Part shown: positions 28,138 to 63,813 of the stretch, piece after piece
Numbering within the stretch: the stretch's first letter is position 1
Layout: each line of letters begins with the position of its first letter
Assembly: GCF_026914265.1 (NCBI RefSeq)
Contig: NC_069129.1
Location: forward strand, 26,775,650 to 26,839,649
From: Mya arenaria
Taxonomy: Eukaryota; Mollusca; Bivalvia; Myida; Myidae
Direction: 5' to 3'
Length of the DNA stretch: 64,000 nucleotides
Translations under genes and position numbers: made by a program
The notes under the pieces: generated by a model
Told to the model about the DNA's origin: nothing
What the model saw: only the letters and a program-made list of their open reading frames with translations
The model's database searches: none

Positions 28138-28158
28138 ACAGTCGCAGAAAGATCGAGC

Positions 28159-35180: not shown

Positions 35181-37057
35181 ATGGATAGCATGTACAAACT
35201 GAGCATAGTATTCATCTTATACATTCAAAGTTACATTGGTATGTATGTTTTTTTGTACACGAATAGCTTACTAATATATGTGTAGGACTCCCTCATGTTC
35301 TCGCTATCGATCAGGGTTTAATAACATATTCCAACAACTGCTTTGACTTTGTAGGACGCAGCACATTTGTAAGGCTAACAATTATACGAGGGTAGTTCAA
35401 GAAGTTTGTAGGCCGATAGGCGTCACTCGCTCATTCGCTCTCTTAAATTTGTGTCGTCTCGGGTTCTGAAGCGAGTAAACGTCCTGATCGTTTAACCATT
35501 GCTTTACGTAGGACACAGTAAATATTCCAGGATATTTATCCTCAAGAACACGAAGCAGTTTCTGCGCATCCGCGTAAGTAGCGGGATTTTTCTCATCAAA
35601 ATAATATCGCTCTAAAATGTCTTCTTTCTCTTTATTATCCATGAGTTATTAGGGTACTGGTCTAACATAGAATGAGAATTTAGCTATAAAAAGGGGTCTT
35701 TATAATCCTCGCCTTTAAATATACACAAACGATCTGGAATTAACAACACCAAGTACTAATGTAAAGTACACTCGCAACCCAGCAACTGCGGTTAAGAAGA
35801 ATAACGCTTCTCCGTATTTCCACGTCGTGTAGTGTAGCAGTTGTTTCTCTTATACTACACATTAATACAAAGTAAGGGCAATAAATAGCAAATCTTCGCC
35901 AAATAAGTAAATATTCGGAAACCGATTCCCTGCTCCCGATTCCCACTCACCTAAAAATACCACTACTGATATTAACTATTTTAATAAATCTTTGTTTGGC
36001 ACAATGCCTAAGGACACCCGGTCTCAGTCATCCAGTCATCCACAGAACCAAGGCAGTCCAATGTATTATTCTTTTAACTACGCATACTTTCATTGAATTA
36101 GCATACTTCCATCGGATGTGTATACTATCAATGAAAAATACGCATAATTCCTTTGAAGTATTCTTTGGAGTATCTGTGGTTACAGACGATGGGTCTCAGT
36201 ATGCTCCCTGGTAGGACATGTATGATTTATACCAGATAATAGCTTTCCATAATGCCGAAATACAACACTATATTAATATAACAAATGAAGAGTTATTTCT
36301 AAAAGTCTTAATACAGCATATTTTTTATCAATGCATTTAATTTTAATTAATTACATTAACACACTTGTCAGGACAATCCCAAGTCGAGCTGTCTACCAAC
36401 GGCAATTTAACGGTGGAGCTTTGTAAGAGCACGGTGATATGGTGCGCCTTCAATGTCTCGGATGATAATTTAATACAAGGAGTGTCATTGAACCTGACCA
36501 AAGATGGCATGACCAAAGTTCGTTTTCATCCGTTAACCGTAACAACACCTTCAAGCGTAGATCAATCAATTTCTGAAAGGGTTAAAGCTGAAAGATTTAC
36601 GGTGGACAATAAAAACGCAACGGTGACTTTATACTCCATCGAATCCAGTGATAGTGGCACTTATACCTGGACAGCGTCTTACTACAGTGGTGAAAATAGA
36701 GACACCTACCAGAACGCAACAGCGATCCAGACACTGACCTTTTCAGGTATCGTTTATAAATTATACTTTCTCAACGTACACATATGCGTAAATGTTGCAT
36801 TAACTCATACTTAGCAGTGAACAAGGTATATCAAGAACTTGCAAGAAATCCGAAACCATAATGTTGTCACTAGAATTTATTAGACAAAAGCTTTTTTATC
36901 ATTTTTCATAAACAACGCATTCTATACCCAAATTGCAGCCCGTTTTACACGTATTTCTTCTTCTTTTCTATAAACAGATGCAGGTTGCCCGACAGCTTCT
37001 TACAAAGTGGAACTCGTTGTTGGAATGCTTGTTGTTGCATTCATTTATTTACAATGA
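35181..37057 (+). CDS. Ig gene A: single Ig domain, short hydrophobic C-terminus without tail
   Basis: Three exons: 35181-35238 (signal peptide, MDSMYKLSIVFILYIQSYIG), 36372-36746 (Ig domain) and 36978-37057. All junctions are phase 1 with GT/AG sites; the product is 170 residues. The Ig exon starts GQSQVELSTNGNL and has the tyrosine-corner motif SSDSGTYTW, with Trp where the strand-F cysteine is expected. Its cysteines are at ELC and IWC, ten or fewer residues apart. The last exon encodes DAGCPTASYKVELVV + GMLVVAFIYLQ and then stops: a hydrophobic end with no basic or cytoplasmic residues, compatible with a GPI-anchor signal (candidate DAG omega region) or a tailless membrane anchor. Homology of the Ig exon to genes B and C is clear. 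Role inferred: cell-surface or decoy recognition receptor. Confidence 0.82.
35397..35642 (-). mobile_element. fossil integrase fragment, Polinton/Ginger-like
   Basis: An N-terminal integrase piece on the minus strand, with the family-typical patterns RYYFDEKNPATYAD, VKQWLNDQDVYSLQNP and RRHKFKR. It is a broken remnant inside the first intron of Ig gene A. Its downstream end runs into a mariner-like terminal motif at about 35386-35412 (TACGAGGGTAGTTCAAGAAG). Polinton versus Ginger origin cannot be separated from this piece; age unknown. Confidence 0.55.
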
Positions 37058-37528
37058 CATGATCTAAAGTGAAGGAATATTCGTATTCTTCTTCTTTCCT
37101 GACTGATGAAATATGAATTCTGTTATTGGACAAAGTAGTGATGACAAAAACATATTCTTTTTTTATAATACATTTGTTTTGTTTCTGTAACGAGGACAAA
37201 TGCGTGCTGAAATATATTCTTCTTCTTAACAACAACTTTGTTTTATTGTTTTATTCAAAAGCGAATCTTTACTTAACTGAAAGATTTTTATGACTTGACA
37301 CAATTGTCTTATGTTGAGCAAGGGGCAAAGCAGTCTCGGATACCTTCTTATTATGTATATTATTTATTATATAAATAACCTGATTTTTGTAAGTGAGAAA
37401 GTAAGAGGTTGTGAAAGTGGGTACAAACCGTTTGTGATAATGGGATAAAAAACATGGCCATATTCTGACAAAATACCATGAAATTGTACGCTCTGTGGAC
37501 AAGACGTCTTATAGATACACAAACATCT
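37058..37528. other. 3' flank of Ig gene A
   Basis: The first 190 bp match the flank of the relic at 20050-20260. Open frames on the minus strand are shadows. A loose ATAAATAA near 37370 could serve as poly(A) signal, weakly supported. Confidence 0.4.
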
Positions 37529-37710
37529 CAATTGGACATAATACGATGCCAATTTGTTGGGCATAATAACATGTCAATAAGACACGTTCACGTTGGACAT
37601 TATTAAAAGTCAGTTTGACATAATAACATGTCACTAAAGTGTGATAGAATGCTAGTTAGACATAGTAACTTGTCGGTCTAACATAATAACATGTCTGTTA
37701 GACATAGCCA
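37529..37710 (+). repeat. short degenerate tandem repeat
   Basis: Several copies of a unit around TTAGACATAATAACATGTC with variable spacing of about 35-45 bp, directly before the 37.7-39.2 kb satellite. Confidence 0.7.
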
Positions 37711-37714
37711 TAGT

Positions 37715-39205
37715 ATGTCCCATCTGCTAACACTAGAGAGTCTACCACATCTGATTACACTAGAAAATTTACCGCATCCGCTAACACTAAAGAGTCTATC
37801 ATACTTGCTAACACTAGATAATCTACCACATATGTTAAGACTAGAAAGTCTACTACATCTCTGCTAACACTAGAGAGTCTGCCACATATGCTAACAGTAG
37901 AGAGTATACAACACCTGCTTAAACTAGAAAGTGTGTTTATCATGTCTGCTTAAACTAAATACTCCACCACAATGTTAACACTAACAAGTCTTCTAAATCT
38001 GTGCTAAAACTAGAAAGTCTGACATATCTGCAAACATTAAAGTCTACATCGCCTTGTTATACAAAAGAGTTAACCACATCTGCTTATACTAGAATGTTTA
38101 CAACGTCTGTTAACACTAGCGAATCAACCATCTATCTGCTAACACAATAGAGTCTACCACATATGTTAACACTTTAGAGTCTACCACATCTGTAAACACT
38201 TGAGAGTCTACCACATCTGTGCTAACACTAGAGAGTTTACCACTTTGAGTCTAACAATAGAGAGTCTAAAACATCTGTATTAACACTAGAGAGTCAACCA
38301 CATTGGCTTACTCTTGAGAGTCTGCCAAATATGTGTTAACACTAGAGAGTCTGTCACATTTGTGCTAACAGTAGACAATTTCCAAATCTCTGCTAACATT
38401 TAAGAGTCTACCATATATGTGCTAACACTAGAAAGTCAACCACATGTGTGCAAAAACTAGCGAGTCAACAACATCTGTTAACACTAGAGTATCTACCACA
38501 TCAGTCATTACTAGAGAGTCAACTACATCTGCTAATACTAGAGAGCCAATCACATCTTTACTAACACAAGTGAGTCTTCCACATATGTGCTCTCACTAGA
38601 AAGTCTATCACATCTCTGCTTTCACTTAAGAGTCTACCACATATGTGCTAACACTAGGGAATCTACCACATCTGTTCTAAGGGAATATAACACATCTCAT
38701 AACATTTAAGTGTCTACCACGTCCGTGCTAACACTAGAGAGTCTTCCATATATGCACTAACACTAGAAATTTTATCACATCTCTGCTTACACTTAAGAGT
38801 CTACCGCATCTCTGCTTACACTTAAGAGTCTACCACATATGTGCAAACACTAGAGAGTCAACCGCATCTGTGCTTACACAAGGGAATCTATAACATCTGC
38901 TAACACAAGGGATTATACCACATCTCATATTATTAAAGAATCTACCACATCTATGCTAACACTAGAAAGGTTATCACATCTTGTTTACACTTAGTTTTCC
39001 ACATCTCTGCTTACACTTAAGAGTCTATCACATCTGTGCTAACACTAGAGAGTCAACCACATCCGCTTACACTAGAGAGTCTGTCATATCTGTGCTAACA
39101 CTAGAGAGTCCACAACATCTGCTTACACTAGAGAGTCTACCACATCTGCCTACACTAGAGAGTCCACCAAATCTGGGCTAACATTAGAGAGTATTCTAGA
39201 TCTGC
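37715..39205 (-). repeat. diverged satellite, inverted relative to the 24.4-27.2 kb array
   Basis: Some 50 diverged units of 27-30 bp reading GCTAACACTAGAGAGTCTAC + CACATCT on the plus strand, the reverse complement of the AGATGTGGTAGACTCTCTAG monomer of the 24-25 kb array. Units differ from each other much more than in the first array, so this copy looks older or less homogenised. Open frames through it are spurious. Confidence 0.92.
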
Positions 39206-39515
39206 ACATAGCTATATAGCTTTTCCGTAAAAGTTTGCTAGACTTGTGAATTAAAAGGCACCTTATGTAAGAATTGACAGATTAATTGCCAACTAAATAA
39301 AGACTCTATTTACTTTTCGGTAAAACATTTCACTCATAACTAGACAATATTGAGTAGTCGTTCAATACGGGATTTATTAAACGAGTCTTTTTTAAATTGA
39401 TAAAACCAAGCTTTGGCGAAGTTTTATCAGTTCTAATAATTCTGTCCAATAAATTTCGTATTGATGAGCATGAAAATGATATTCTATCATAGATACGTTG
39501 TATTTTTTTCATTTA

Positions 39516-40441
39516 CAGTCGAAACTCGTTATGTCGACTTTTTCGGGATCTAGTGAAAAAAGTCGGGATAACGAAAAGTCAACTCATCCGAATTACAAAA
39601 AATATCACCAATCCCAACACGTTTGAGTTAGATTGATTTCCGATGTTTACATCCACAATTGAACGGTATTGTTACATATTTCCGTCGTGAAAACAGCAAA
39701 CTTATTATTGAAAAATAAAGTGAAACAAAGAAGAATTATTTGTGTCGAATTTATTTCTTTTACGTTTATGGATCACACAAAACACATATAAAACCACAAT
39801 GGCATACACTTGTACATTGTAAGAAAACGGTATAGCACATATGACAACAACTTTTATAAAATAGCACATTCGTGTTTCGTTTATACACAGCAATATAGCA
39901 CATTCTCAAAATCATTTTATACCGGGTCTTTTTCTGAATTGGTCGACCAGAGCAGTGGAACTAACATTTGACATTTTGAAGTTATTTTTTCTGTGCCCAT
40001 TCGGGATTGTTATCGAATCAATAAAATTTTCATGTTTTATACAATACCAAAAAGAGCTTGAGCAATAAATGTCTCTTTAATGAAAAACATAAACAAACAA
40101 CTTTAATTATTCGCACTAACCAATTACATTTTTGTTCCTCCAATTATGTCAGTTTGTTATATTGACAAGCACGGTATTTTGCGACATGCCGCAAACCGTC
40201 ATGAATATTTTCACACTTACGTCTCGATCTACAGTTCGACATAAAGAACATAGGAAATGTGTGAAATTCGACCACAGGGACTGAAAAACGAGGTCGACAT
40301 AGCGAAAAAGTCGAGATAAAAAATCGACACAAACAGATTTATTTTATATAGAATAAGAAGGAATAAATTCGGGACCGGAAGAAAAAGTCGACACAACCGG
40401 AAAGTCGACATATCCGACGTCGACATAGCAAGTCTGGACTG
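39516..40441. mobile_element. pogo-like non-autonomous DNA transposon, 926 bp
   Basis: The left end CAGTCGAAACTCGTTATGTC matches the complement of the right end, CAGTCCAGACTTGCTATGTC, and both are flanked by TA. Inverted sub-terminal copies of AAAGTCG...ATAACG/GTCGACATA occur at both ends. The interior has no transposase frame. Its CAGTC ends resemble those of the 152-bp element at 12269-12420. Confidence 0.85.
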
Positions 40442-40504
40442 TATTTTGCACATAGTGTACATATCAACATACAGTACTAAAGGAAAAAAGCTAAATCACA
40501 ATTC

Positions 40505-40575
40505 CACGCACGCACGCACTCACGCACGCACACACACACACGCGCGCACGCACGCACACACACATACATGCATGG

Positions 40576-40608
<33 letters not shown>

Positions 40609-40630
40609 CAAACATACATGCATGGATACA
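40505..40630. repeat. (CA)n/(CG)n microsatellite
   Basis: Runs of CACGCACG and CACACACA with two copies of CATACATGCATGGA, just beyond the right end of the pogo-like element. Open frames on both strands through it are artefacts. Confidence 0.95.
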
Positions 40631-40979
40631 TAAACGTTTGTACTTACGAACGATATCCCCATATACTAGCTAATGTTTTCAAATTTTGAATATATAAATC
40701 AAGTCCTACGATTGATGTTATTTAAGAACATTTTGAGAGTTTTTGACATGGCTATGTGTGTCTTTAATAGTTAATTAATGTTTGTCTTTCCCATTTTTTA
40801 TTTTAGGTTTCATATTTATTGTCGTTCAACGCTGTTTGTTCTTCTATTTTAAATCTTTGTTTCAAATACATCAAATATGCATCAAAGGATAGTAGTTGGT
40901 TGAGTGTGTATGTTAAATTTGATAAAAATATTAAGGAAGTTACAAACGTTATTGTTTTGTTTATTTCCTATTCCCAGTA

Positions 40980-42360
40980 AGGCTTCACGTTTACCAATCA
41001 ATACATTAATCTTTGTTGATGCTATTAAAACGTTTCATTCATTCCATAGTGGCTGAGTAACATTACACTCCCAGTATAGATGTTCATAAGATTACATACA
41101 TGAACTACAGAATGTACATAAGATACAATCGACAAGTTTGAACTTAAAAAAGCAGTTGTTATTATTCTTAAAAGAAATTCGTAATAAAAACTACGTAATG
41201 TAGTACCTATTGTAGATGTGTTTATATTACAGTATATATTTTTTCATTCAAAATTTTAATCTGTGTTGCCAGGGTTTCAGTCCACTTTAATTCTAAGACT
41301 GGCGATGTTGTTGTTGTTTGGAGCAATATTGCGTATATAATATTATTTTATTGCTGATATTGTACTAAGAGTCTGTGTGGTTTATTCAACTTTTAATCAA
41401 TTGTATCTTCGTTTCCGTCGGAATTAATTTTATGAGAGTTAGATATTTCATGAACACGGTGCTCCATATGCCGTTTAAATATTCAATTTGATTTAAATCA
41501 TAACAAATTTTAGTTCTATGATCGAAAATGTGTTCAAAGTATTGTACACCTTTTCCATACCACTGTTCGTTGAATAGCGTATTTCCTAGATTGTAAATGT
41601 GTTGTTATTCCATTTTACTGTTTTTTGTTATTTTTTTTTAAGTCATAAACTTGTTTAATATTGCTTATAATTCCGGAATGTACAATTACCTGACATTTTA
41701 TTAATGAAAGATTTATCCATTTCACATACAAATAAATAAAAGATGGTTGTCATTAATGGTCAGTTTGTTTTTGAAGATTTTTCTTTGGCTTTTATTGTTG
41801 TCATCTAAGAGTAAAAAAAAATCAAAGTTTGTTAGCTTCAATCCAACATAATCGTAAGTTTGATTCAATATGTGTCTATTGATTTGGTCAGGCTTTCCAT
41901 CCAATATTTTAGAAATAGCTCTTTAACAGTTTCAATAACGCGTTGGCTTGTATTCGCTAAAATAGTACATGGATACATTAATTTTGATAGCGCATACCTG
42001 TTTACAACATTTACTTTACCCATCAATTTTAGTTTTCTATGTTCCCATTGTTTTTATGTTTTATGAAATACGTCCAGCTTTTTGTTGGTATTGTTGTCAA
42101 TTGTTTTTTGAATATGTTTACAGGACGTAATACCTATTGCTGTTGCAAATTCTAAAGTCCACTTAAAAGATTTAACTTGACAAAGTATATTGTAGTATTT
42201 TTAGGAAGACCATCCGATATGAATTTGATTACTTACATCGCAAGTACGTCCCTATATTGCGGGCACATTTTCAACGCTATTCATGCTGACAATTTTATTT
42301 GCTTGCCTTATAATAAGATTTTTACCCAAACAATGAAACAAGAAACAATCAACTAACAAA
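40980..42360 (-). mobile_element. decayed LINE (L1/Tx1-like C-terminal part), minus strand
   Basis: Minus-strand translation gives WEHRKLKLMGKVNVVNRYAL followed by LSKLMYP (about 42050-41960), then KYWMES and DGKPDQINRHIL near 41900, and NEQWYGKGVQYFEHIFDH near 41560. The order W..R.L.L.GK, W.GKP..I.R, then W...G(V/I)..(F/I)..(I/L) is characteristic of the region after reverse transcriptase in L1/Tx1-type LINEs. Frame breaks are present and the RT core is not seen, so this is a dead 3' fragment. Confidence 0.72.
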
Positions 42361-42881
42361 GAATTTCTTTTATTTTAAACCTTAAAAGTATTTTTACGAT
42401 AAAAATCAATCGTTACAAAAGCATATATTGGAAGGCAAACGTCCTATTGTTTTCTGATAGTATTTCGGCATGCAGTTTTTCTGTTTCCATTTTAAGTGTT
42501 TAAATCATGCAATAGTAAAGACGGAAATTTAACAGTCATGAACTAATGAACAATCGTACTGGTTGTATTACACCCGAAACAAGGAAAGTCATGTGATAAA
42601 TACTTTATCCTTAAAATATGAAAACTGCAGGACAATCGTTTTTGTCAACGCCTTTAAATAAATATATATTAAAAGAATGAGTTAAACTTATAAAAAATGT
42701 AAGTTGTTATTGTAAGTAATTTAATTATAAAAACAATAATGATAATATGCGTATTAAACAATGTATTTCAAACATAAATTAATATGTATGTTAAATACGT
42801 GTTCATTGTATTTCAAAGCGCTTTGCACGGATTCTTTCAGTCGCTCAAATTATTTGGGAAACAAATAATTAGTGCTCGGGA

Positions 42882-45800
42882 ATGGATATAACGTATTTAT
42901 TGAGTGTCTTATTCATGGTGCATACTGAAATTAAACCAGGTATGTATTGGCATGTTCTTCTTACATTATGCATCATTTTCAATGCATGAAAGAACGCTTT
43001 GCTTAAACATAAAGAGTATGAAGCAACTATAGTTAAACAGATGGTCTTAACATAGCAATTAAAAACGAATATCTCATCCGGGTTCCAGACCGTGTCTTTT
43101 TCTATAATAATTTTATAATCGGCGTATTCTGTCGGTGTATTGTAGGAATATCATTAGTTCAGTTGAATACCAACGGCGATATTACGGCGGTGCTGGGAAA
43201 CAACACGTTTCAGCTGACGTGCACCAACAGTGGCTTGACAAGCGCAGCAACTCGAGGCTTTGCAATGCTTTTGGTAAAAAATGAAAGGTCTTTAGTGGTG
43301 ATTCCGCCTTTATACACAGGAAAGAGTATTAAGATAAATTACAGACGAATTGCAGTTAAAAGATTTATGTTGGACAACCCTACAACTACTGTGACATTTC
43401 ATTCTATTGAGTGCAGTGATGATGGAACTTATACGTGGGACGGGTCATATTATGCCATTGAATCTGGACAAACGAGCATAGCAACACGTCAAGCAATAGT
43501 AGTAAAAGGTGTTTTTTTATAATACTTCAAATAGAATTGTGACATACGTTGCATTACTGATATAACAGTTAGTTAGATAAATGTTCTGATAATGACTCTG
43601 ATAATGTGTGTTAAAATCATCAGGGTATAATATATTTGAAAAACACATAAACAATGAAAGCTATACAGGTACACGTCCATTAATGATAATTCTGTTTAGA
43701 GGCTATTCAATGTTTAACAGACACTTAAACGAGAGACAGTCAACTTCAAAATGCCAAAAAAGACGGACGCGTCAATTTTAAAAGATCTATATTAGTATAT
43801 AAATGTTGAGGTTACTGCCCTTGAACGGTAAGCAACACAGGAGTCAAATAATACACTGCATAAGGAATTAATTTGATGTTTAAACTACTATATGGATACT
43901 AAACTTCAAACTTCTATTCATTTAAGAAAATTAAACATATATTCTTATCGGAGCAAGATTCAACTGTAAGAAATAGTATTATGAAGTAAAACAAAATATA
44001 TTCACTAATAATTAGCTCGACTATGTATACACTACATCTTTCTATATGGTATTATAATAAGTGTTACATTGAACAAACCAGGGAGTAATTCAAGCTATCC
44101 TGGCTAAACGTTAAAACGAAACACATGCAATGTAAACAACAAAGTAAATGTGATTTTCCAGTTTATCCAATCTTTGGGCCAGAGGACTCGCAGCTTACTT
44201 ATTCACCAACCGCAAATCTTACTGAGGGTGACAAGGTGAAATTCACATGTAGCGGTGATGTCGGCAACAACCCAGTTGACATCCTTGCTTGGTTCTACTA
44301 CAGAAATGGAGAAGTTGCACCGACTGATGAATCTTCTGACGCAGTTTTGACCGCCCCGCAGGTCACAAGGGTTTGTAGTAGATCAAGGTCGTCTACAATA
44401 GAACTAACACTGACAAGGGATATGGACAATACGGTGGTACGTTGTACAGTACAGCAAGATATTAGGACAGCGGAAGGGGAAGGTCATATAGACACTAACG
44501 CGTTATCTGTGACGTGTAAGTTTTTACTCGGTAAAACAAATATAATGATTAACATTCTCAATTTGTTTCTCTGTAACTGTAATAAGTGGTCAACCAGTTT
44601 GTATTTCATTTGAAAATGAATCATCGAAGTCAATTATAATACAACCACTAGAAAATACGTTAAATGTTCATGCATAGCCTTTTTTTATATTTTTGAGACA
44701 AACCAGTCATCAGGTCATTAATAAGATATCCAGACATGCAGCTGTATCCAGAGAGACTAGAAGAATTACAATTGAGATGTTATGCCGAGGGAAACCCTCT
44801 GCCGGGCCACTTCTGGCTGTTCAATAACTCAACCAGAGCTGGATATGGGTCACTTGTTCTGAACAATTTAACAACGGCCCAAGAAGGGACATATACTTGC
44901 GTTGCTTACAACTATATAAAAGGAGTCATAAACAACGTTAGTGCCAGCACTTATATAGCCATACGTGAGTTAAATATCATTTTTGACGCATAAGTTTTCC
45001 TTCCACCGAACTTAATATTATCATATGATAGTGAAATATCATGTTCAGCAACAATGGGTGTTAAAACTAACGAATGCCTTTCTTACAAAGTATAGAAGGC
45101 CTTCTGAATATCAGGAATATTAAGGTGAAGTCACCAACAAAGTCCCACAACTCATACTATTTAAAGTGTGTTAAGGAGTCCACATTTACATTTTCATGTA
45201 AGGGCCGCCAAATGTTAGCAGTGTTGGTTATATTTAACTAAACAGTGGTAGTCTTCGTTGTCTTATTTAAAAATTGACTCCATTTTTTTGCGTTTTCATC
45301 CTGTTTGATAGCAGGAATGTACTTGAGCTAGCGCTTCTTGGGAAATTTGAAAGCGTGCCCCTCTGCGTTCATACATCATGGACACACGAAAACATGGGAT
45401 GAATCCTTATTATTTATTTTTTTAAATTATTATTCATTAAGATTCAAACGCAGCAAAACCTTTTGCAGCTGAGTATTTATTGTTATTTTTTTATCATTGT
45501 AAACGTTGGATAAAAGCATTGCCTATAATTGTTGCGTCGTGTTCAATTGGTAAAATGACGTTGCGCTTATTCAATTGGAGCGAAACATTGAAAAAAACAA
45601 TGACTTCATAATTTCTAGCGGTTCATACAAAACGAAGTTACAAAAAATAGGACGAATGTGAGATATGGATAGACTTCCTTTTTTGTATTGATTACCAGCA
45701 ATACGAATATTCAAACCTTGAACACTATTTACTCCTTCTAAAGGGTTGACTAAATTGCCGATTTAAACAATTGATATTAAACGTTTAGCAAATATATACA

Positions 45801-48800
45801 GTATATTACCACTGTTGTTATAATAATGTCTAAAACTCTGTTCTGTATTTATTTATTAATAACCTGAAATTCGATAAATCTACGTAGAAAAATCGTGACT
45901 TCATTGTTTTCAAATAATTGAATGAAAGTACTGGGAAAAAACCAGCTGCCAAACACACTTTAAACGAGAGACACACAAAGCACAAACAACACAGGAAGTA
46001 AAACAACAACAACAACCCTTAACGGTTGACACACAAGGTATAAACAGCACAGGCAGGTAAATACAAAACGAGAAACACACAAAGTACAAGCAACACAGAC
46101 AGATTAACACAAAACGAGAAACACACAAAGAACAAGCAACACAGACAGATTAACACAAAACGAGAAACACACAAAGAACAAACAACACAGACAGATTAAA
46201 ACAAAACGAGAAACACACAAAGTTCAAACAACACAGACAGATTAACACAAAACGAGAAACACACAAAGAACAAGCAACACAGACAGATTAACACAAAACG
46301 AGAAACACACAAAGAACAAACAACACAGACAGATTAAAACAAAACGAGAAACACACAAAGAACAAGCAACACAGACAGATTAAAACAAAACGAGAAACAC
46401 ACAAAGAACAAACAACACAGACAGATTAAAACAAAACGAGAAACACACAAAGAACAAACAACACAGACAGATTAACACAAAACGAGAAACACACAAAGAA
46501 CAAGCAACACAGACAGATTAACACAAAACGAGAAACACACAAAGAACAAACAACACAGACAGATTAAAACAAAACGAGAAACACACAAAGAACAAACAAC
46601 ACAGACAGATTAAAACAAAACGAGAAACACACAAAGAACAAACAACACAGACAGATTAAAACAAAACGAGAAACACACAAAGTTCAAGCAACACAGACAG
46701 ATTAACACAAAACGAGAAACACACAAAGAACAAGCAACACAGACAGATTAACACAAAACGAGAAACACACAAAGAACAAACAACACAGACAGATTAACAC
46801 AAAACGAGAAACACACAAAGAACAAACAACACAGACAGATTAATACAAAACGAGAAACACACAAAGAACAAACAACACAGACAGATTAAAACAAAACGAG
46901 AAACACACAAAGTTCAAGCAACACAGACAGATTAACACAAAACGAGAAACACACAAAGAACAAGCAACACAGACAGATTAACACAAAACGAGAAACACAC
47001 AAAGAACAAGCAACACAGACAGATTAACACAAAACGAGAAACACACAAAGAACAAACAACACAGACAGATTAACACAAAACGAGAAACACACAAAGAACA
47101 AACAACACAGACAGATTAACACAAAACGAGAAACACACAAAGAACAAACAACACAGACAGATTAAAACAAAACGAGAAACACACAAAGAACAAACAACAC
47201 AGACAGATTAACACAAAACGAGAAACACACAAAGAACAAGCAACACAGACAGATTAACACAAAACGAGAAACACACAAAGAACAAACAACACAGACAGAT
47301 TAACACAAAACGAGAAACACACAAAGAACAAGCAACACAGACAGATTAACACAAAACGAGAAACACACAAAGAACAAACAACACAGACAGATTAACACAA
47401 AACGAGAAACACACAAAGAACAAACAACACAGACAGATTAACACAAAACGAGAAACACACAAAGAACAAGCAACACAGACAGATTAACACAAAACGAGAA
47501 ACACACAAAGAACAAACAACACAGACAGATTAACACAAAACGAGAAACACACAAAGAACAAACAACACAGACAGATTAAAACAAAACGAGAAACACACAA
47601 AGAACAAGCAACACAGACAGATTAACACAAAACGAGAAACACACAAAGAACAAACAACACAGACAGATTAACACAAAACGAGAAACACACAAAGAACAAA
47701 CAACACAGACAGATTAACACAAAACGAGAAACACACAAAGAACAAGCAACACAGACAGATTAACACAAAACGAGAAACACACAAAGAACAAACAACACAG
47801 ACAGATTAAAACAAAACGAGAAACACACAAAGTTCAAGCAACACAGACAGATTAACACAAAACGAGAAACACACAAAGAACAAACAACACAGACAGATTA
47901 AAACAAAACGAGAAACACACAAAGTTCAAGCAACACAGACATATTAACACAAAACGAGAAACACACAAAGAACAAACAACACAGACAGATTAACACAAAG
48001 CAAGAAACACACAAAGTATAAACAACATAGACAGATTAACACAAAACGAAAATCACCCAAAATACAATCAACACAGACAGGTAAACACAAATCGAGAAAC
48101 ACACAAACTAAAAACAACACAGACAGGTAAACACAAAACGACAAACACACAAATAACAAACAACACAGGCAGGTAAACTCAAATCGAGAAACACATACAG
48201 TACAAACAACACAGACAGGTTAAAACAAAACGAGAAACATACAAAGTTCAAACAACACAAACAGAAAAACAGAAAACGAGAAACACACAAAGTACAAACA
48301 ACACAGGCAGATAACACATTCATCACAATACTGTTATCAAAACCCCTTGCGGTTACCGCCTAGGAAGGTTAATGAAAACAAGAGTTTTTTTTTATGCCAG
48401 AATCAATTTGAAGGTGCAAAAGAACCATATTATAAATATTTATTTTTTCCCTTTAAACAGAGAATGATACATCCAACAGTTTCAATAGAACCATAATAGA
48501 CGATTTTAGAGAAAGTCCAACGAGTAATTCTAAAACTTCGAGCAAAGAAAATGATGGTTCAATGTCTGAAACTAAATTAGACTACATTGTGTGGATGATA
48601 GTTGGTGTAGTTGTCGGGGCGTTTGCGGTTGGGGCGGTCGGTTTTTCCGTAATGCTTGTTAAACGATGTTATAAACGTCACAAAGGTACATATTTCAACT
48701 TAAATGAACTGTTTAAGACATGTATGGTTCGTAACAATTTGTAGAAATAACATCCGTATAAACGCTGCACATGGCAATAATCGTTTGCTGTAACCAGATT

Positions 48801-50626
48801 GCTTTAAAAAGTACTAACAATTCCGTTTTTTGACTGATTTCTTAACGTCCTGAAACAAATGATTTTTGCAAATGAATCATTTTTATAAATTATAGTTTGA
48901 GTCAGCATGTACTATTCCATTTTTTCAATAGTTTAAATATTATTGCTATCTATTGCAGAACAACAACAATACAAAAAAACAGAACTCATTGCCAGGTAAT
49001 GAAATAGAAACCAAAAGGCTCTAAATGTTAGTCCCTTTGGAATTTGTTTCTCACATAGAAAGATATAAGATTTACTCTAAGAGTGTCATTGTTTTAAGGT
49101 ATATTACCTGATTTAATAGAATTCACTAGTTCTCTCTTATGTTTGTTTCAGGTTTGAAGGGCACACAGATTTCACTGGAGCTCATAATAATGAACACGTT
49201 AATTATGCCGGAAATGAGCGAAGTTATCAGTCTTTACGTAAGCGAAAACCACCATTTAACATGATAGCATTAACAAATGTCGCCCTTTAACATGAAGACA
49301 TAAGCAACTGTCGCAGTCTTATATAATTACTTTAATTAAGTTCCATCTTTTAACATGATCATCAAAGCAATTTTCTTCTTTAAGGTGATAGCATAAGCAA
49401 TTTTTACCTTTCAACATGATAACATAAGCTACTTTCTTCTTTTATAGTTATTACATAAGCACGTTTAACTTTTACCATGATTACTCAAGCAAATGTATGA
49501 TTTTAAAATGATTTCTTAACCGAGTTTCTGTTTTCAAAGTGATTGTGTAAGCAAGTGTGTCTTTTGACACCATTACCTAAGCAAGTTTCTTCCTTTAAAG
49601 CGATAACGTAGGAATTTTTCACCTGACATAGCCTATTATTACGTTAATTACTTTTACCTTTGAAATGGTTTGTGGGACTGAACAATATACGTATTTAATT
49701 TGTAAATAATCAGTACTTTATGCAGTTAATAATAGTTTATATAAAATATAACTTGTTGTAATTTATTAGTTTCGTTATGAGCTTGTGTTTCTTTGTAATC
49801 CCTTTTTTCAGATGGAAAGCACCAACATGCTTGCCAAGCCAGGTACATTTCAGCATTGTAGTTATTCCATTTGCACTGTTGTTAATTATGTATAGGATAA
49901 TTTTATACCCCTTATACGGAAGATTAGAAGTAATTATCAACTTATATTTTGGACAACACAGTTTATGTAATATAGGGCTCTCTTATGTTATATACTTGTT
50001 AATTATACAATGGCAATTGAAAGAGGTTGGTTTCTTTCTCATTGAACTCTTTCTTTTTATACATTAAAAGAGCAACCGAAGAAGATTACACCGGTTTAGA
50101 CGCAAGCAGCCAAGGTAAGTGTATAGTTTGTATTCAGAAATGAAACTGTCAGATAAATTATTGTGTCATTATAACTGCATATAACATAACTTACGAGCGC
50201 AATTAAGTACTTAGAATTCTGTTGTTAGCCTGATTTCTTAACGTCCTGAGACAAATGACTTTTGCAAATGATTTTTTTATTAATTCTATTTTAGAGTCAG
50301 CATGTATTATTTCATTCTTTCTATGGTTTGAATTTCATTGCTTTTAGTTCCAGAACAACAACGAAACACAAATACAGACCTCAACACCAGGTAACCAAAT
50401 ATTTTGAAAATGGCTTCTGATGTTAGTCCTTTATTATTATGTTACTCGCATAAAAAACTCTAAAATTCACATTGTTTTTAATGTATATAACCTGATATAA
50501 TAGCATTCAGTTTATAGTTGTAACAATTATACCTATTTATATCTTATGTCTTCTTACAGTTCGGAAGGGTCCACAGCATTCACTGGAATTCACAACTATG
50601 AAAACGTTAATTTTACTCGGGAATGA
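42882..50626 (+). CDS. Ig gene B: three Ig domains, transmembrane helix, long tyrosine-containing tail
   Basis: Eleven exons, all phase-consistent: 42882-42939 (signal, MDITYLLSVLFMVHTEIKPG), 43146-43508 (Ig1), 44162-44515 (Ig2), 44707-44964 (Ig3, acceptor tentative; AG at 44731 is an alternative), 48461-48685 (Ser/Thr/Asn stalk and TM), 48959-48995, 49152-49237, 49812-49842, 50071-50114, 50354-50390 and 50560-50626; total 519 residues. Ig1 is V-like with GTYTW in place of GTYYC. Ig2 is C2-like (FTCSGDVGNN, VVRCTVQQ) with an extra Cys in RVCSRS. Ig3 is canonical (LRCYAEGNP, GTYTCVAYN). The TM is IVWMIVGVVVGAFAVGAVGF, followed by KRCYKRHK. The tail holds SYQSL, EEDYTGL and NYENV, candidate SH2 or endocytic tyrosine motifs. 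A single-pass receptor, role inferred as immune or cell recognition. Confidence 0.8.
45955..48318 (+). repeat. 46-bp minisatellite in the gene B intron before the TM exon
   Basis: About 51 copies of a 46-bp unit, AGAACAAACAACACAGACAG + ATTAACACAAAACGAGAAAC + ACACAA, very homogeneous in the centre with a few fixed variants (AAGC/AAAC, TTAAAA/TTAACA, GTTC/GAAC) and more diverged at both edges. It lies in the intron 44965-48460. Minus-strand frames with repeated CVSRF/LCCLYFV are artefacts of the A/C-rich unit. Confidence 0.95.
49250..49620 (+). repeat. degenerate intronic repeat, about 36-bp period
   Basis: Roughly nine or ten diverged units of CTTTAACATGATAACATAAG + CAA.TTTC, in the gene B intron between exons 7 and 8. 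Part of it recurs at 50650-50730 as part of the larger tail-exon duplication. Confidence 0.7.
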
Positions 50627-50730
50627 GCGACACTTTCAGTCTTCACGTAAGCAAAAGCTAACTTTTAACATGATATTTAACCAAATGTCGTCCTTTTAGA
50701 TGAAGCCATAAGCAACTGTCGCACTCTGAG
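50230..50730 (+). repeat. duplicated tail-exon block (copy of 48830-49330)
   Basis: Exon 6 (48959-48995) and exon 7 (49152-49237) with their introns recur as exon 10 (50354-50390) and exon 11 (from 50560). Matching intron strings include CTTAACGTCCTGA(A/G)ACAAAT and GAGTCAGCATGTA(C/T)TATT, with an offset of about 1.4 kb. In the second copy a one-base length difference brings the TGA that ends gene B at 50624-50626. Confidence 0.85.
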
Positions 50731-53700: not shown

Positions 53701-54820
53701 CATGCTGCAATTTCAATAACTAAGAAACAAACAAGACTTTTTTGGCTAACTGGGAACCTGTCGACTATGAAATAGGTATCATGGATCAAACTTACATTAT
53801 AAGAGTAGCAAATATTGCTACCAATACAACATAGTAATTGACAACATCGCAAAAAAGAACACCCACCCGTTGTTTCTGGTAGTGGTGACATTTTCTAGTA
53901 AATGCATTTTATGACATTTATAATCACACGCCTCGTCGTCTCTTCCTGATATGTTATAGTGTGGCTCCGTATCAACTATATCCAGTTTTATGGTCGGAAC
54001 AGCGTCAGGGTCATAACCGAATACAATAGGTCTCTATATGTATTCAATTGTTCGAATAGGTGGACAAATGTTATTAATAATCCAGGGTTCATAATCAGCG
54101 TATCTTAAAGTATATATATATTATCAAATTGATATATATGCAATCTTCGCCGTGAACAAAATTGCCTTTATGTTATAATTTCTTTTATTTTGCTACACAC
54201 AAATGTATAAATGTATATGTGAATCGAATCATAGCCAGTAATATGAGTTGTTGCCCTGTCGATTTAAGATTTTTGAAGCTATAACTAAGATCCTTTAATG
54301 AAGACATAAACTGAAACTCTGTCATTCTTGATTAGGATGTCACCGTTTCTACTTTTGCTTACCAAACAGTACCCAGTGTTTACAACATTGATCAACATTA
54401 ATCATTTGTACTCTTTTAATTTTAAATCTGCGTCCTATATATAGCCTATCAGCATAAACATGGTTTAATTTGAGGCTACTGGGATAATCACGGTAGTTAA
54501 TATTGTTTTAATATTCTATGCTTTAAAAATTAAAATCCATTAATGTCCATTAATGTCGTAAAAGCTGAAATGCTAAAAATGTTCAATTGAGGTCTTTCAA
54601 AATGAAAATCATAATAATCATAATAATAATATCCCGTACAATAACCAACCCTGTTAGCTTAACCTTAAATCATTTCGTTTTACCGTGTGTTTGCTTTTGA
54701 TGTACTTGAAGCGCAGGTATGATTTTATGGTAGTGTTATAAATTAATGCTTATCTAACTAAAGCGTTCATGAAGAAGAGTTTTAAAAACATATAGACATA
54801 AGGAAAAGTAGTGTTCAGGA
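50627..54820. other. intergenic region between Ig genes B and C
   Basis: AT-rich, with a 40-bp direct repeat (CCAAGCTGAAG..AAAC.GGA.TATTACTG at about 53533 and 53591) and one uncertain minus-strand exon-like frame (51498-51630). No other Ig exon was found by eye. Confidence 0.5.
51498..51630 (-). CDS. possible isolated exon, unrecognised
   Basis: The minus-strand frame reads SIPETNKPVTSSPEQLFTDE and continues LKKKVCGSYDLFLRILVING, and is followed directly by a good donor (G|GTAAGAA). Composition is protein-like and unlike the flanking AT-rich DNA. I do not recognise a family, see no partner exon nearby, and the upstream boundary is unclear. It could equally be a piece of a mobile element or chance. 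Confidence 0.25.
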
Positions 54821-54878
54821 ATGGATATCATGTATATATTGGGCATTTTTATCATCTTTAATATTCAAATTGAAATTG
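54821..54878 (+). CDS. orphan Ig-family signal-peptide exon (gene A type)
   Basis: ATG at 54821, 58 nt, phase-1 donor GTATGT at 54879. It encodes MDIMYILGIFIIFNIQIEIG, like the gene A leader, and shares the upstream string AAAAG..AGTGTTCA(A/G)G(A/G)ATGGATA with gene A. No Ig exon follows within 5 kb. It is either the remnant of a lost gene or a usable first exon for gene C: the joined phases are compatible and would give 359 residues. Confidence 0.65.
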
Positions 54879-57800: not shown

Positions 57801-57949
57801 TTTGCATCGCTACCGGCCCTTAATTAAAACCGGCATTGTATAATATACGTTCTACCCCTGCTTGTATACTCAAGGAATGGATTACAATATTTAAATACGT
57901 TTATCTATATATGCGCTCAAATTAGTTTAAATATGTAGTGCACGGGGAA
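54879..57949. other. intergenic or intronic AT-rich sequence
   Basis: A (CATC)n microsatellite at about 56239-56300 and a poly(C) run near 56530. The open frame ending in SIHPSIHPS is the microsatellite. No exon recognised. Confidence 0.55.
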
Positions 57950-58007
57950 TGGATATCGCGAATTGATTTAGTGTTATATTTATACTGCATACTCAATTTA
58001 AACCAGG
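57950..58007 (+). pseudogene. gene C's local signal exon, with an in-frame stop
   Basis: The 58-nt exon aligns along its length with the gene B leader exon (42882-42939), including the start ATGGATAT, CTGCATACT and AAACCAG|GTATG, and the upstream block CTCAAATTA...CGGG. The sixth codon is TGA (57965-57967) where gene B has TTA, so MDIAN is followed by a stop. No later in-frame ATG exists in the exon. Confidence 0.75.
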
Positions 58008-59935
58008 TATGCATTGAAATATAATCTTAATCTTTCCAGTATGCATAAAATCATAAACGAACGCTCAATAAGGTGTTTACGCCACACCACATTGATGTTT
58101 CGTTCCGCGGATTAACCACTTTTATTTCTTGAAAATGTAAAAAAAATAACAAAAAAACATTGTATTTTTTTTGTGTGCGCCCGCACCTATACTTTGATCG
58201 CCAACCACATTTTTTTCAGCTGATATTTTTTAAAAGGCTGAAAAATAATCAATAACTTTCCTACGCTAGTTTACGTGTTTTTGTAAAGGAAAGTTACCGA
58301 TGCGTGGTGTTTTAATACTGTATATCGATCGGTTTAGCATGGGTTTTAATAGATTCAATCAAAATGGCGGCTTCCGGTATAAACAATGTGGCTTAAATTT
58401 TGAAAATTTAATTTAATTTTTGACAATAGATATGTTTTGAGCATGCTTGAAGTCAATGTTCATCGTCTCATGCACTACGGGATCATTAATCAAAGCAATA
58501 ATTATGCAATTAAGCATGTGTATCTGAGACTGGTAGCAATTATATTGCGTTGTTAGAGACTCGTTTTGGATGTAAATCGTTATGATCAACCAAGTATTAT
58601 AATTATTATTTAAGTCATTATACAAGTGACCAAATTTTACTTTGTTACGACGATGCTGAAGATGACAGCTCAGCTTACCCGGAACATGAGTCATTGTTTG
58701 GTCCAAATTGATTTATCAACCTCATTTATAACCAAATTCTGACAAAACAACAGTTTTGAACAAATATCTTTTCACCAATAGCGATATAAACACTGGTTCA
58801 TTTTCATTTGCAGCATAATCCGGGATTATAATGCACCAGTCAATTGTAACCACTTCCCTGCCCTGGGTATACCGGGGACAGCAGGGGGCAATGGGCCGTG
58901 TCTTTACTATTCAGGTGGCCCCGCAGTGCCAATTGAATGCAGTGTTTGTTTTCAAACTGAAAATAGCAGGGAAAGGGCCTCCCGAGGAGGGTGGGGTGGG
59001 GGGTGGTGTGGGGAGGTCATTTGGAAGGGATTTTACCAACATTTTGTCTCTGCATGTCAGGGATTCTACCTGGGATTGGATGGACCGGAAGTCAAAGTCC
59101 CCGCTTTTCTGGACTTAGGGAGGCCATATGAAAATTGGCTGGTGCATGAAAACATCTAAATTACCATTAAAGTACTTTGAACATACCTTTGTTCTTTTTG
59201 TTTTGATAAGCACATGTCATTGCATTTCCTTTGATAATAAAAGCAAAACTTAGTCTAGCAATTTAAATGTATATGGAGTCTGATGTTTGATGATGCCTGT
59301 GTAAAAAATCATTTTTTGCAAATTAAAAATCAATCCTAAGTATGTCTAAATACAGATGCAAATGATGTTAAAGTGATTTAAGTAGATTAATATAAGTCGT
59401 TTAAAACTTTTTACTAAAGGCTGGTTTAAATTTATTATCATGAATGATCTTCATATTAAAATAGGTTTTAATTATATAAGAAATTTGATTTATCCATTTA
59501 ATGTTTGTACTAAACACGGATGATAAATAGTATGTATTCCGACATTTTCCCTATGTCCATTAGAGGTTCAGTTCAAAATTTCATTTCAATGGGTTTAAGG
59601 GGAATTATATTGATAACAAAGAAAACAATATTTTTTGTCTTCGCTCGCTTCGGGTTTACTGAAAACTAACAAAATTGTATTTTGTTTTTCGCTAACTCGC
59701 TCCAATGTTTTTGGCAAAACTCCGAGGAACGAAACATTCATTTGGGGTGGCCTTAGTAGCATATTAAGTTTATTATTATAACTTAAAGCAATGAATATCA
59801 TTAAGCTCATTTTCTACTCTTTACTTTAAAGTTTAAACATAATTCAAATCCAGGTTCTGAACCTGGTCACTACCGTTTAATGTCAGAGTAAAATATTAGG
59901 GCTTCTTAAATAACGGGTTATGACTTTCACTATAG
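58008..59935. other. intron/upstream region of Ig gene C
   Basis: Contains the MITE-like element 58831-59147 and a short segment near 59640-59710 related to 33786-33850. Otherwise AT-rich. Confidence 0.5.
58831..59147 (+). mobile_element. MITE-like GC-rich element, copy 2
   Basis: 317 bp beginning ATGCACCAGTCAATTGTAAC and ending with ...AATTGGCTGGTGCAT, the imperfect inverted complement. The interior shares TGGACC..AAGTCAAAGTCC with 5990-6151 in the same orientation. The open frames here (Gly-rich) are accidental. Confidence 0.65.
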
Positions 59936-62900
59936 GAATATCCCAAGTTCAACTTAATACGAACGGCGCTATAACGGCGGTGCTTGGGAACAACTCGTAT
60001 CAGCTAACGTGCACACATAGTGGCTTGACAACATCACAGATACAAGGACTTTCAATGTCGCTGAAAAAAGATAGTCTGTTCATAATGGTGTTGTCACCTA
60101 TATTCGTAGGAGACAACGCTTCGATAAACTCAACGTTTTCTGGACGAATATCGGTTGACAGATTCACCGCAGACAATCCAATAACAACAGTGACATTTCA
60201 ATCTATTGAATGTGGGGACGAGGGAACTTATTCATGGGAAGGTTCATACTTCATGGCTGCATCAGGACAAACGCGCGTGTCACAGACACAAAACATCACA
60301 GTTAAAGGTAAAAACAAACATCATATTTACAATCTAATACCATGTCTTGAGTACACGATCCAAAAATGTGTGGCAATATAAGCTAACAAGTATATGTATT
60401 TATTTGTGATATAACTTTTTGTTATCTTTACAGCCCTCCCGGTTTTCGGTCCACATATTTCGCAGCTTTTTTACACACCAAATACAAATATTGCTGAAGG
60501 TGACAAAGTGACCTTCACATGTAGCGGTGATGTCGGCAACAATCCAGTTGGTGAAATTGCCTGGTTCTACTACAAGAATGGAGAATCTAAACCGATTGAC
60601 GAATCTTCCAACGCAGTATCAGCAGTTCCCCAAGTGTCTAGGATTTGTAGTAGGTCAATGTCGTCGACATTAGAACTTACATTAACACGGAATATGGACA
60701 ATATGGTGGTACGTTGTACAGTACAGCAAGATACAAGAACTCCGGAAGGGGATGGTCACATTCAAACTGATACTGTGATATCAGTGATGCGTAAGTTTTT
60801 ACTTCATAAAAAGAAATATAATGTTCTGTTTGTATGTTGTCTCAAAATCGATCCTTGAAAATAAATATAAAAAAACATCGTATGTGAATGTGTTTAAAGT
60901 TTCATAGTTTTTTTTCTTTTGAAGCACTTATATCTTATACGTGAGTTAACTATACTTTTCTTTTTTCACATAACTTGATAAAGAAACGTCTTCGAATTTC
61001 ATATTCAATAACAAAGGGTGTCCAACTCAAACTAACGAATAAAACTCTTGTAAATTATAGAAAGCTCTGAAAAACTGTTTCCACATGTACACTTGTTATT
61101 AAAGGGCCTCCGAGTGTTATCGGGGCTAGGCAATATGAAACAGAATAGTGTTAATACGTTTTTCATTGTTACTGTTTTTTTTAATGTATTATAAGAAAAA
61201 CAACAACATTTGTTATCAAACTAGAACTCAACATCAATCGTTTAAACCTGCTTAATTATTTGTTAAATAAATGGTGTAAACGATTTTGACATGAAACGTT
61301 AAATTAACTACCAATGCTTTACGGCTGTTTATATGTAGTCTTATGATTCGTCTGTACACACGTTGTAATAATATACATTCCGATATGGCCTCATTGAAAA
61401 CTCGAAGATTTTCTTCTTATTTCTAATATGGGTTTACTCTTTTAACAGAGAAGACTACATCAACAAGTTTTAATGCAACCATGAGTGATTCTACATCTTC
61501 GCACAATGAAGGAGAAGGTACAACGTCTGGCACTCAACCAGGCTTCAGAGTGGGGATGGTAGTTGGTGTAGTTGTCGGAGCTTTTGCTGTTGGGGCAGTC
61601 GGTATTTCCCTTATGCTTGTAGGACGATGTTATAAACATCGTAAAGGTACATATTTGTAGTCGAGATATATGATTTTAAGATATCTATCTTATTAAAATT
61701 ACATTTTTAAGCGCTGTGTTTCAATATGTTTGTGTGCTTTGGTAAGATTTCTTTCTTAAGTATTTAAATGTATTTAAGCTTATTTGCAATCGCCCGTTAT
61801 CATTTTTTTGTAAATTGTTAGTGTTTGGCGCAAGCAATATGTGTAGTTCCCAATGGGTGTGTGTGTGTGTGTACGTGCGTGCGTGCGTGTGTGTGCGTGT
61901 GTGTGTGTGTGTGTTTAAATATGGCTCTCAATTGCTGAGTGTCTAGTTACCATATGTAACGCCTATAATATATTATTAATTAATATTGATACTATTCTAT
62001 TCTTATACCTCCAACTGCATTTGAACAATTCACGTGACTAGTGCTACCAAATTACCTATTTATTGTTATCGCAAAAATGTTCAACCGGCAAACGTATGCT
62101 CTAAACAATGAAACAGTAAAGTACTACTTTGATTGGTAGGAAAGTGCCTTATGTTTTGATTCGTCTCGAATTGCATGCGTTTATCTGGTACGTTATATTA
62201 CATGAATACAACTGTTTAAAGGAACCAAGAAATGCGGGAAATCAAAATGTAAAATTCAACTCATGTATTTTTACTTAGTAATGATTCTTATGACTAGTTA
62301 GATAAAATGACATTTCCCGCGCAAAGGACGAATGCTAATGGAAATTACCCGCAAACGATATTTTCCTTTTTTCAAATTGCACATGTTTGTATTCAATGTT
62401 GTTATTAAACATACAATATATGATTTGTACAACTCGTGTATATCTTTTTTAGTTTTTATCAATGCAAAATGCATTTGGTGATTTTATTACCCCGTTTTCG
62501 GTAGTCTTGTTTATTTGTGTTTTACTGTTTAAGTAATCCTTTTAATTCTTAATGCATTTGTATTTCAATGTAATGGGATGTTAACATTTCTATGCAATTA
62601 ACTGTATTGTGGTTTAAGGTTTTTATAGCCGATTTAAATTTTATAGCATGAATATAATGAAAATACATAGCTTTGCTAGTTGAAAAAAAGAAAAGAAAAC
62701 ACCTTCCTGGATACTTCATTTAAAGGCAGTGAGTTTCTCTTTCTTCTGTTGAGATGGTAACGCAATTAAAGCGAATTCGGTTTCCTTTTTATGCGCCATT
62801 TATATGTTGTTATTTTTAACATTTTTGCTTTGATGAGTAACATAGAGGCAGCATGTGATTTTATTCTATAAAAAGATCTAGTTTTGATTGCAGTTTCAGC

Positions 62901-63141
62901 AAAACCAACGAACACAAATACTGAACTCAACACCAGGTACTTTTATAATTATCGTATGATACTGTTACCCGCAAACAAAGAAATATCATACAAATAGTGA
63001 TTTGTAATGGAATTATTACCGGATATGATCAAATAATAACGTATGTATGCGGTGAATAAATGCCTCACTGTGTAATATTTCAGGTCTGAAGATTCCATTG
63101 CTGAAATAAATAACTATGACCATGCTGAGAAACAGAAATGA
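59936..63141 (+). CDS. Ig gene C: two Ig domains, transmembrane helix, short tail
   Basis: Exons 59936-60307 (Ig1), 60434-60790 (Ig2), 61449-61646 (stalk and TM), 62900-62936 and 63084-63141, phases as in gene B. Ig1 is V-like (SYQLTCTHSG, SIECGDEGTYSW) with Trp at the usual strand-F Cys. Ig2 (FTCSGDVGNN, AWFYYKNGE, RICSRSMSS, VVRCTVQQ) is nearly the gene B Ig2, with the same extra Cys. The gene B Ig3 exon has no counterpart between 60791 and 61448. The TM is VGMVVGVVVGAFAVGAVGIS followed by GRCYKHRK. The tail ends INNYDHAEKQK at 63139-63141. The adjacent signal exon carries a stop (57965), so the gene needs the exon at 54821, an unseen leader, or is a pseudogene. Confidence 0.75.
61855..61915. 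repeat. (GT)n microsatellite
   Basis: GTGTGTGT runs mixed with GTGCGTGC, in the gene C intron after the TM exon. Confidence 0.95.
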
Positions 63142-63441
63142 GCCGCAATATCAGTCTTTAAGTAAGTATATGTCAACTAAATTGGTCACTTAATCTAACT
63201 TCACATTTAACTAGTTTCTTTAGTTTTAATGTGCTTTGTGAGCTAGTTTCACCATTTAACATTATAACTTTCACTTATAAAAATGATCTGAGGGCCTGAA
63301 ATATACGTATTCCATCAGTCAATGATCCGGAATGCCTTAAACCGTCACTGAAAACGATTTGTGTTTGCAATACTATGTATATGTAGTTTTTTATAGCTTA
63401 TTTGACCCCATGAATTGTTGAGTTTTATTTATTTTTCTTAG

Positions 63442-63813
63442 ATCAAAATCCTCAATTAGTGAACCAAAACAGGTACATTATACCTATTTTAATTTTCTCT
63501 ATGGTTCATGTTGTATCAATTTATATTCTGAGTTTTTATTGAGACGTCTATACGAAGTAAGCCTCCACTGGGTTTTGGTAATACAACATTGTATTATTTG
63601 AACAACTTTACAACATTTATAATTCTCACATGCTCATTCTTATTTAATCTGTCATTCTATTTAAAAGAAAATGCCGTCATTTTCATTAAAATGTTGTTGT
63701 TTTTCAGAGCAACATAGAGCGATTACACTACTTTAGACATAAGAAGCCATGGATTGTTTATACTTTGTTTTGTTCTGTTTCGCTAACCGTTCTAAGGCGG
63801 CACCATAAATAAA
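63442..63813 (+). pseudogene. terminal exons of gene C, homologous to gene B tail exons but beyond the stop
   Basis: 63442-63472 is 31 nt, exactly the length of gene B exon 8, with similar borders (TTAG|AT...CAG|GTACATT). The exon starting at 63708 (TTTTTCAG|AGCAACATAGAGC) matches gene B exon 9 and would read RAT, stop, SDYTTLD against RATEEDYTGLD. In gene C both lie after the TGA at 63139, so they are probably 3'UTR or unused. A poly(A) signal AATAAA at 63808-63813 follows, marking the transcript end. Confidence 0.6.

Follow-up and report, generated by a model that had tools for sequence, protein, structure and literature searches.

We describe a group of immunoglobulin (Ig) genes in the bivalve Mya arenaria, three of which (genes A, B and C) lie in a stretch of 64,000 nucleotides of contig NC_069129.1 (positions 26,775,650 to 26,839,649), referred to as the window below. 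We give an even chance to the reading that these genes and their relatives form a small family of Ig receptors which signal via tyrosines in their cytoplasmic tails, and the family probably represents a local variant of a receptor design found in other animals. As judged from the predicted exons, the membrane ends differ within the family: gene A ends in a tailless or glycosylphosphatidylinositol (GPI)-like manner, genes B and G carry long tails with YxxPhi motifs, and a gene termed C5b combines an immunoreceptor tyrosine-based inhibition motif (ITIM) with a motif resembling the immunoreceptor tyrosine-based switch motif (ITSM). The inhibitory-looking C5b lies outside the window. An original prediction, made from the letters of the window, had proposed three anchoring and signaling formats; a real small Ig family with differing ends is indeed present, and two of the three formats required correction. 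The genome searched comprises 1.2 Gb, and coordinates without a contig name are window positions; C8 denotes the contig of the window, and C5, C7, C9 and C13 denote other contigs.

The predicted relatedness of the V-like exons of A, B and C and the common phase of their leaders are both borne out. The leader exons of A (35181-35238), B (42882-42939) and C (57949-58006), which like all exons of these genes are on the forward strand, each measure 58 nucleotides, end in a GT donor and exit in phase 1, and the ectodomain exons are spliced in phase 1 as well. The V-like exon of C (59936-60307) shares 36% identity with that of A (36372-36746) and 57% with that of B (43146-43508), and when searched against the genome it returns them at E 4.6e-16 and 2.3e-36, respectively. 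Upstream of both C5 genes, C5a and C5b, a 58-nucleotide phase-1 leader is found too. A strict scan for such leaders over 183 kb of C8 gave 11 candidates (nine on the plus strand, two on the minus strand), seven of which are of the hydrophobic MD/MG type of this family, including the stop-bearing leader of C, and four of which, two per strand, fall outside it. The scan overlooks a second leader of gene E, seen by tblastn at C8:26860123.

Across the whole genome, three V queries reveal seven V exons and one V fragment. The exons of C, of A and of C5b (the last with its few first residues taken from C5a, and 99% identical to C5b) all return A, B, C, E and G on C8 together with C5a and C5b on C5. 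The search with C admitted matches with E up to 0.001 and the other two up to 10; the remaining rows of the latter have E 1.15 or worse, except for the fragment, termed F, at C8:26883045, which is seen by the C5b-derived query and by tblastn. These counts are lower bounds. A large family expansion was considered and rejected, as the three queries converge on the same seven exons. The Ig2 search matches B, C, E, G, C5a and C5b, and the membrane-exon search matches B, C, E, G and a further gene, D. The family may have originated by tandem duplication on C8, with an older split from the two C5 genes. A literature search, mostly of papers outside subscription, retrieved no description of this clam Ig family, and Rfam gave no match at its gathering thresholds.

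Profile matches and a structural model together place the A, B and C family in the immunoglobulin superfamily. In Pfam, B matches Ig_3 with E 8.6e-14, and the V exon of C matches V-set with 27.3 bits, above the cut-off of 26; the V exon of A lies just under it (24.9 bits, E 2.4e-5). In gene B, the Ig2 exon (44162-44515) is weakly CD80-like C2-set, under the cut-off, and the Ig3 exon (44698-44964) is I-set/Ig_3-like. The AlphaFold model of the V domain is a beta sandwich of modest confidence (predicted local distance difference test, pLDDT, 61; predicted template-modeling score, pTM, 0.56); among the 50 Foldseek matches listed for it, nearly all are antibody or nanobody chains by title. The model of Ig2 is poor (pLDDT 48). 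All seven V exons lack the canonical V-set pair of B-strand and F-strand cysteines: the former is retained in each, and the position of the latter is occupied by Trp in each (GTYTW or GTYSW, with SDSGTYTW in A). Another Cys stands just ahead of the F strand in six of the seven domains, with Ser in A.

The exact DNA pattern for this Trp motif occurs at 50 places in the genome, namely the seven genes, 33 places in one C13 array and 10 others. A wider class of V domains with Trp was considered and rejected, as none of the seven other places read lies in a V-domain-like frame by eye; the three remaining (C7:60601681, C7:60653547 and C9:26246637) share their 21 letters with places that were read. 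The repeat array at G000:C13:51572492-51574579 holds its 33 exact matches to the DNA pattern for D-x-GTYTW.

The best match of the V profile among PDB sequences, in keeping with a V-type Ig fold, is nectin-3, a weak one at E 0.018, and the Ig3 profile does not discriminate between CEA, DSCAM, contactins, roundabout and sidekicks, all of which it matches. Both results favor a different explanation, which we consider rather unlikely: that the genes form a cell-adhesion family with nectin- or sidekick-like use and no immune role, in which the YxxL and YxxV motifs are endocytic sorting signals. Against it stand local duplication and loss on C8 and the presence of several different membrane ends, to which we turn now.

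The frame of gene A splices without stops through AG/GT junctions into a last exon (36978-37057), where it terminates in the short hydrophobic stretch DAGCPTASYKVELVVGMLVVAFIYLQ followed by a stop. The predicted tailless end is thus confirmed, and by inspection the C-terminus fits a GPI-like or tailless protein. An isolated forward-strand relic at 20078-20131, beside a tandem array, resembles this last exon (E 0.002 within the fetched regions) and suggests an older A-like copy.

Gene B has a layout of leader, V, Ig2, Ig3, stalk with membrane span (48461-48685) and six tail exons, with an uninterrupted frame to the stop and AG and GT at all junctions. Its tail contains the three motifs that had been noticed: SYQSL in exon 7 (49152-49237), EEDYTGL in exon 9 (50071-50114) and NYENV in exon 11 (50560-50626 to the stop). 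Between them, exon 8 (49812-49842), which has 31 nucleotides in all five copies (B, C, D, E and G), sets the spacing of 16 residues that separates YQSL from YTGL. Exon 10 (50348-50390) is a second copy of exon 6 (48959-48995), and exon 11 is a second, frameshifted copy of the exon-7 cassette (87 nucleotides) in which the tail ends immediately. The intron between the Ig3 and membrane exons of B holds a 46-bp minisatellite of about 50 copies with 94% matches (46029-48318).

The tails of B, E, G and C5b were tested for motifs against shuffled tails, and the figures below are the shares of shuffles with the pattern; they are not independent tests, because the patterns were picked after inspection and the tails of B, E and G are homologous. 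A YxxL-x16-YxxL spacing is present in B, E and G (0.08-0.28% of shuffles). In E and G, exon 7 reads YDHV/YDQV-x8-YQSL and exon 9 reads SDYTAL, so that exon 7 of both holds a YxxV-x8-YxxL pair (2.5-3.3% of shuffles), a relaxed form, with V allowed, of the immunoreceptor tyrosine-based activation motif (ITAM). Gene B has EDYTGL in exon 9 and does not have this pair, since the first tyrosine, retained in the six other exon-7 copies, is missing from its exon 7; the canonical YxxL/I-x6-12-YxxL/I is absent from it as well, and the proposed ITAM-like nature of the B tail is not supported. The two exon-7 copies of D read YVDI-x8-YQYV, which is non-canonical as an ITAM.

Outside C8, the tail of C5b contains the ITIM LTYIDL and the ITSM-like TPYADI, which occur together in 0.14% of shuffles, a combination that argues against a mere role in adhesion. 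The ITIM pattern [SIVL]xYxx[ILV] is also matched by SDYTAL of E and G and is absent in B; a single ITIM is found in 11-16% of shuffled tails (14-16% for E and G). TPYADI is the only match to the ITSM pattern TxYxx[VI] among the four tails (1.5% of shuffles). On the minus strand of C5, this gene extends from a leader at 3563384 via V, Ig2 and Ig3 to a membrane exon at 3536977 and three tail exons ending at 3534789, which splice through AG/GT junctions to a frame of 483 residues. A genome search with its tail exon, admitting E up to 10, returned only the exon itself. With the same limit, the membrane exon matches 36 further places, of which 22 are on C5 and the best has E 0.0035; one of these, at G000:C5:55436500-55441500, lies in a piece of a gene that looks like fibronectin-III by eye. 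As a marker of the family the C5b membrane exon was therefore rejected, because the matched exon that was read resembles such a gene and the exon is not diagnostic.

These features can be assembled into a conditional scheme. An intact gene would encode a leader, a V-like domain without the F-strand Cys, either none or two more Ig domains, and one membrane end. The V-like domain may bind a ligand in trans. Going by their motifs, the tails of B and G would be phosphorylated at the YxxL and YxxV tyrosines by a Src-type kinase and would then recruit SH2 proteins. Tailless A could compete for the ligand or serve as a GPI-anchored co-receptor, and C5b would act as an inhibitor by recruiting SH2 phosphatases through its ITIM and ITSM-like motif.

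Gene C had been described as a short-tail format. A short tail does exist, and it is a frameshifted long one. Downstream of its V-like exon, Ig2 exon (60434-60790), and stalk and transmembrane exon (61449-61646), all of which are open, tail exon 6 (62900-62936) is followed by an exon 7 that runs into a premature stop (63084-63141). The exon-7 copy of C has 78 nucleotides compared with 86 in exon 7 of B, in both copies of D and in E and G; the alignment reveals deficits of six and two nucleotides, beyond which the reading frame is no longer kept and runs into a stop, with the YQSL codons left out of frame. The homologue of exon 9 (63708-63743) contains an in-frame TAG. Because of these two lesions, the short tail is to be regarded as a long tail that has been damaged, even if it might now serve as a tailless format, and the format of gene C looks like decay. 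An Ig3 exon of C was not found by tblastn of the region, in which just a short Ig3 end piece aligns with E and G. The nearby leader of C reads MDIAN*FSV..., with an in-frame TGA at codon 6, a correction to the earlier description. An intact 58-nucleotide leader exon, MDIMYILGIFIIFNIQIEI|G, unnoticed before, lies 3 kb upstream of it (54821-54878), either as a possible leader of gene C or as an orphan; as it joins the V exon of C in frame, gene C may still be made. Gene E likewise has two family-type leaders, at G000:C8:26860123 and 26861549, and the paired leaders of E and C (54821 and 57949) may be alternative first exons.

The lesions of C speak for another improbable explanation, namely a decaying cluster in which B and perhaps A and G work on C8, and the formats of C, D, E and F, as pseudogenes, carry no meaning. 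Further support comes from E, whose Ig2 pieces are in three frames, from D, which consists of membrane and tail exons only, and from F, a leader with a stop-bearing V fragment. The open V, Ig2 and membrane exons of C and its intact upstream leader speak against such an explanation, and some of the lesions may stem from errors in the assembly of this long-read genome. Genes C, E and G are close duplicates, with 76-90% identity in aligned blocks, introns included. Of these, G has a stop-free spliced frame with AG/GT junctions to exon 9, its V donor (GTTAAT) being weak. C5a has a leader, V, Ig2 and a partial Ig3; it was rejected as a full gene, given that the 5' part of its Ig3 is lost and no membrane exon was recognized in the 18 kb beyond it.

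Several observations weigh against a family of signaling receptors. None of the four tested tails holds a canonical ITAM and those of E and G match the ITIM pattern, so that the sign of the signal (on or off) on C8 is unreadable from motifs alone; moreover, YxxPhi motifs also act in endocytic sorting, as an adhesion family would have it. In C5b, the membrane exon follows 9.8 kb past Ig3 and an intervening further exon is possible; the eight frames of at least 70 residues in this gap contain no Ig-like sequence by eye. C, D, E, F and C5a appear damaged or partial, and for this reason much of the family may be decaying. Positive selection, proposed as a check of an immune role, did not emerge: none of the 20 pair-exon comparisons has a 95% interval of the ratio of nonsynonymous to synonymous divergence (dN/dS) that lies wholly above 1. 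The interval-based comparisons omitted A, D, the frameshifted Ig2 of E and the Ig3 exons of the C5 genes. In V, dN/dS ranges from 0.32 to 0.94 over the seven pairs with intervals, as adhesion proteins would also allow; the highest point value (2.86, membrane exon of C-G) has a 95% interval that starts at 0.83. Point values without intervals are 0.63-0.77 for the V of A against B, C, E and G, and 1.18 for the membrane exon of B-D; those for the Ig3 of C5a, calculated from a non-homologous start, are disregarded.

Divergence at synonymous sites (dS) also bears on the proposal that the same type of ectodomain is linked to different outputs. Between B and each of C, E and G, dS amounts to 0.86-1.02 in V and 0.28-0.32 in the membrane exon, and V exceeds the membrane exon in every one of the six pairs that B, C, E and G form; the two intervals lie apart in three pairs (B-C, B-E and C-G), meet at their limits in B-G and overlap in the other two (C-E and E-G). 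Ig2 breaks the trend in C-G (dS 0.51 vs 0.34 in V). The membrane parts thus look younger or homogenized and the V parts older, which amounts to different heads on similar tails and is unlike the classical pattern of paired receptors. The proposal holds insofar as the formats of A, of B and G, and of C5b differ, and fits poorly within C8, where similar tails go with dissimilar heads. True paired receptors, with ectodomains kept alike and opposing tails, are hence quite improbable here, even though the family has tails of different type and the V of C5b is 66% identical to that of C by tblastn (53% to B, 39% to A). The synonymous sites in V are saturated between C5b and each of the five C8 genes, and the V domains of C5b and C8 have therefore not been kept alike recently. 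In Xenopus CEACAM, gene conversion of the ligand-binding domains is reported (PMC5112662); in only three of the six C8 pairs are the intervals separate, and the C8 dS pattern is the opposite of this.

The family had been called one that cannot be named, which agrees with the literature searched; the design, on the other hand, is known from Botryllus FcoR, Hydractinia Alr and CEACAM. Vertebrate CEACAM proteins include GPI-anchored members, and their N domain has no disulfide. The clam V profile matches 36 PDB sequences at E up to 1, none of them a CEACAM, and the likeness is most likely convergence. That a CEACAM-like set was built independently in a bivalve, comprising a V domain that lacks the canonical disulfide, a GPI-anchored or tailless A, an ITAM-like activating G (with B altered) and an ITIM/ITSM inhibitory C5b, seems unlikely on present sequence data; if true, it would represent a protostome on/off recognition system derived from one gene family. 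Botryllus FcoR proteins are type I membrane proteins with V- and C2-type Ig domains, encoded by clustered genes, with ITIM, hemITAM or core YxxI/L/V tails (PMC12065747). They resemble the clam family in the combination of V- and C2-type Ig membrane proteins, clustered genes and tyrosine-motif tails, and differ in that FcoR has a sushi domain and pairs with fester genes; Pfam finds no sushi domain in A, B or C. The Alr genes of Hydractinia form a family of 41, compared with seven V exons in the clam.

Among bivalves, the oyster Ig receptor CgIgIT2 spans the membrane and has a tail with a tyrosine motif; a review calls it ITAM-bearing, and a title cited there calls it inhibitory (PMC11999971). 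Compared by description, it differs in having five Ig domains, and the text available of that review mentions no clustered paralogues with other membrane ends. FREPs are likewise molluscan Ig proteins linked to immunity, and FReD genes adjoin the clam family; Ig and fibrinogen domains, however, are joined in one FREP protein, whereas in the clam they belong to separate genes. Should the clam tails function as their motifs suggest, the provision of one Ig family with activating and inhibitory ends, as in cnidarians, tunicates and vertebrates, would extend to a mollusc, with a bearing on whether such on/off logic is ancestral or was invented repeatedly. The family is small, with seven V exons found, so gene-by-gene testing is feasible.

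Finally, close linkage to FReD genes had been put forward in support of an immune role. Two such genes are real (21450-22843 on the minus strand and 28138-29543 on the plus strand; Fibrinogen_C E 3.4e-46 and 2.6e-50), and their closeness to gene A is no evidence of a common role. Their N-terminal frames look alike by eye and gave no Pfam match with E of 0.01 or less; by Pfam, a fibrinogen domain is absent in A, B and C, and Ig is absent in the FReD frames scanned. The first intron of gene A contains, on the minus strand at 35397-35645, an open frame of 82 residues which resembles a retroelement fragment. Large tandem arrays lie to the left of the FReD genes (18709-19744, 38-bp units), between them (24375-27160, 27/112/392-bp units) and downstream of gene A (37723-39192, 29-bp units), and the 27-bp and 29-bp units appear by eye to be relatives on opposite strands.

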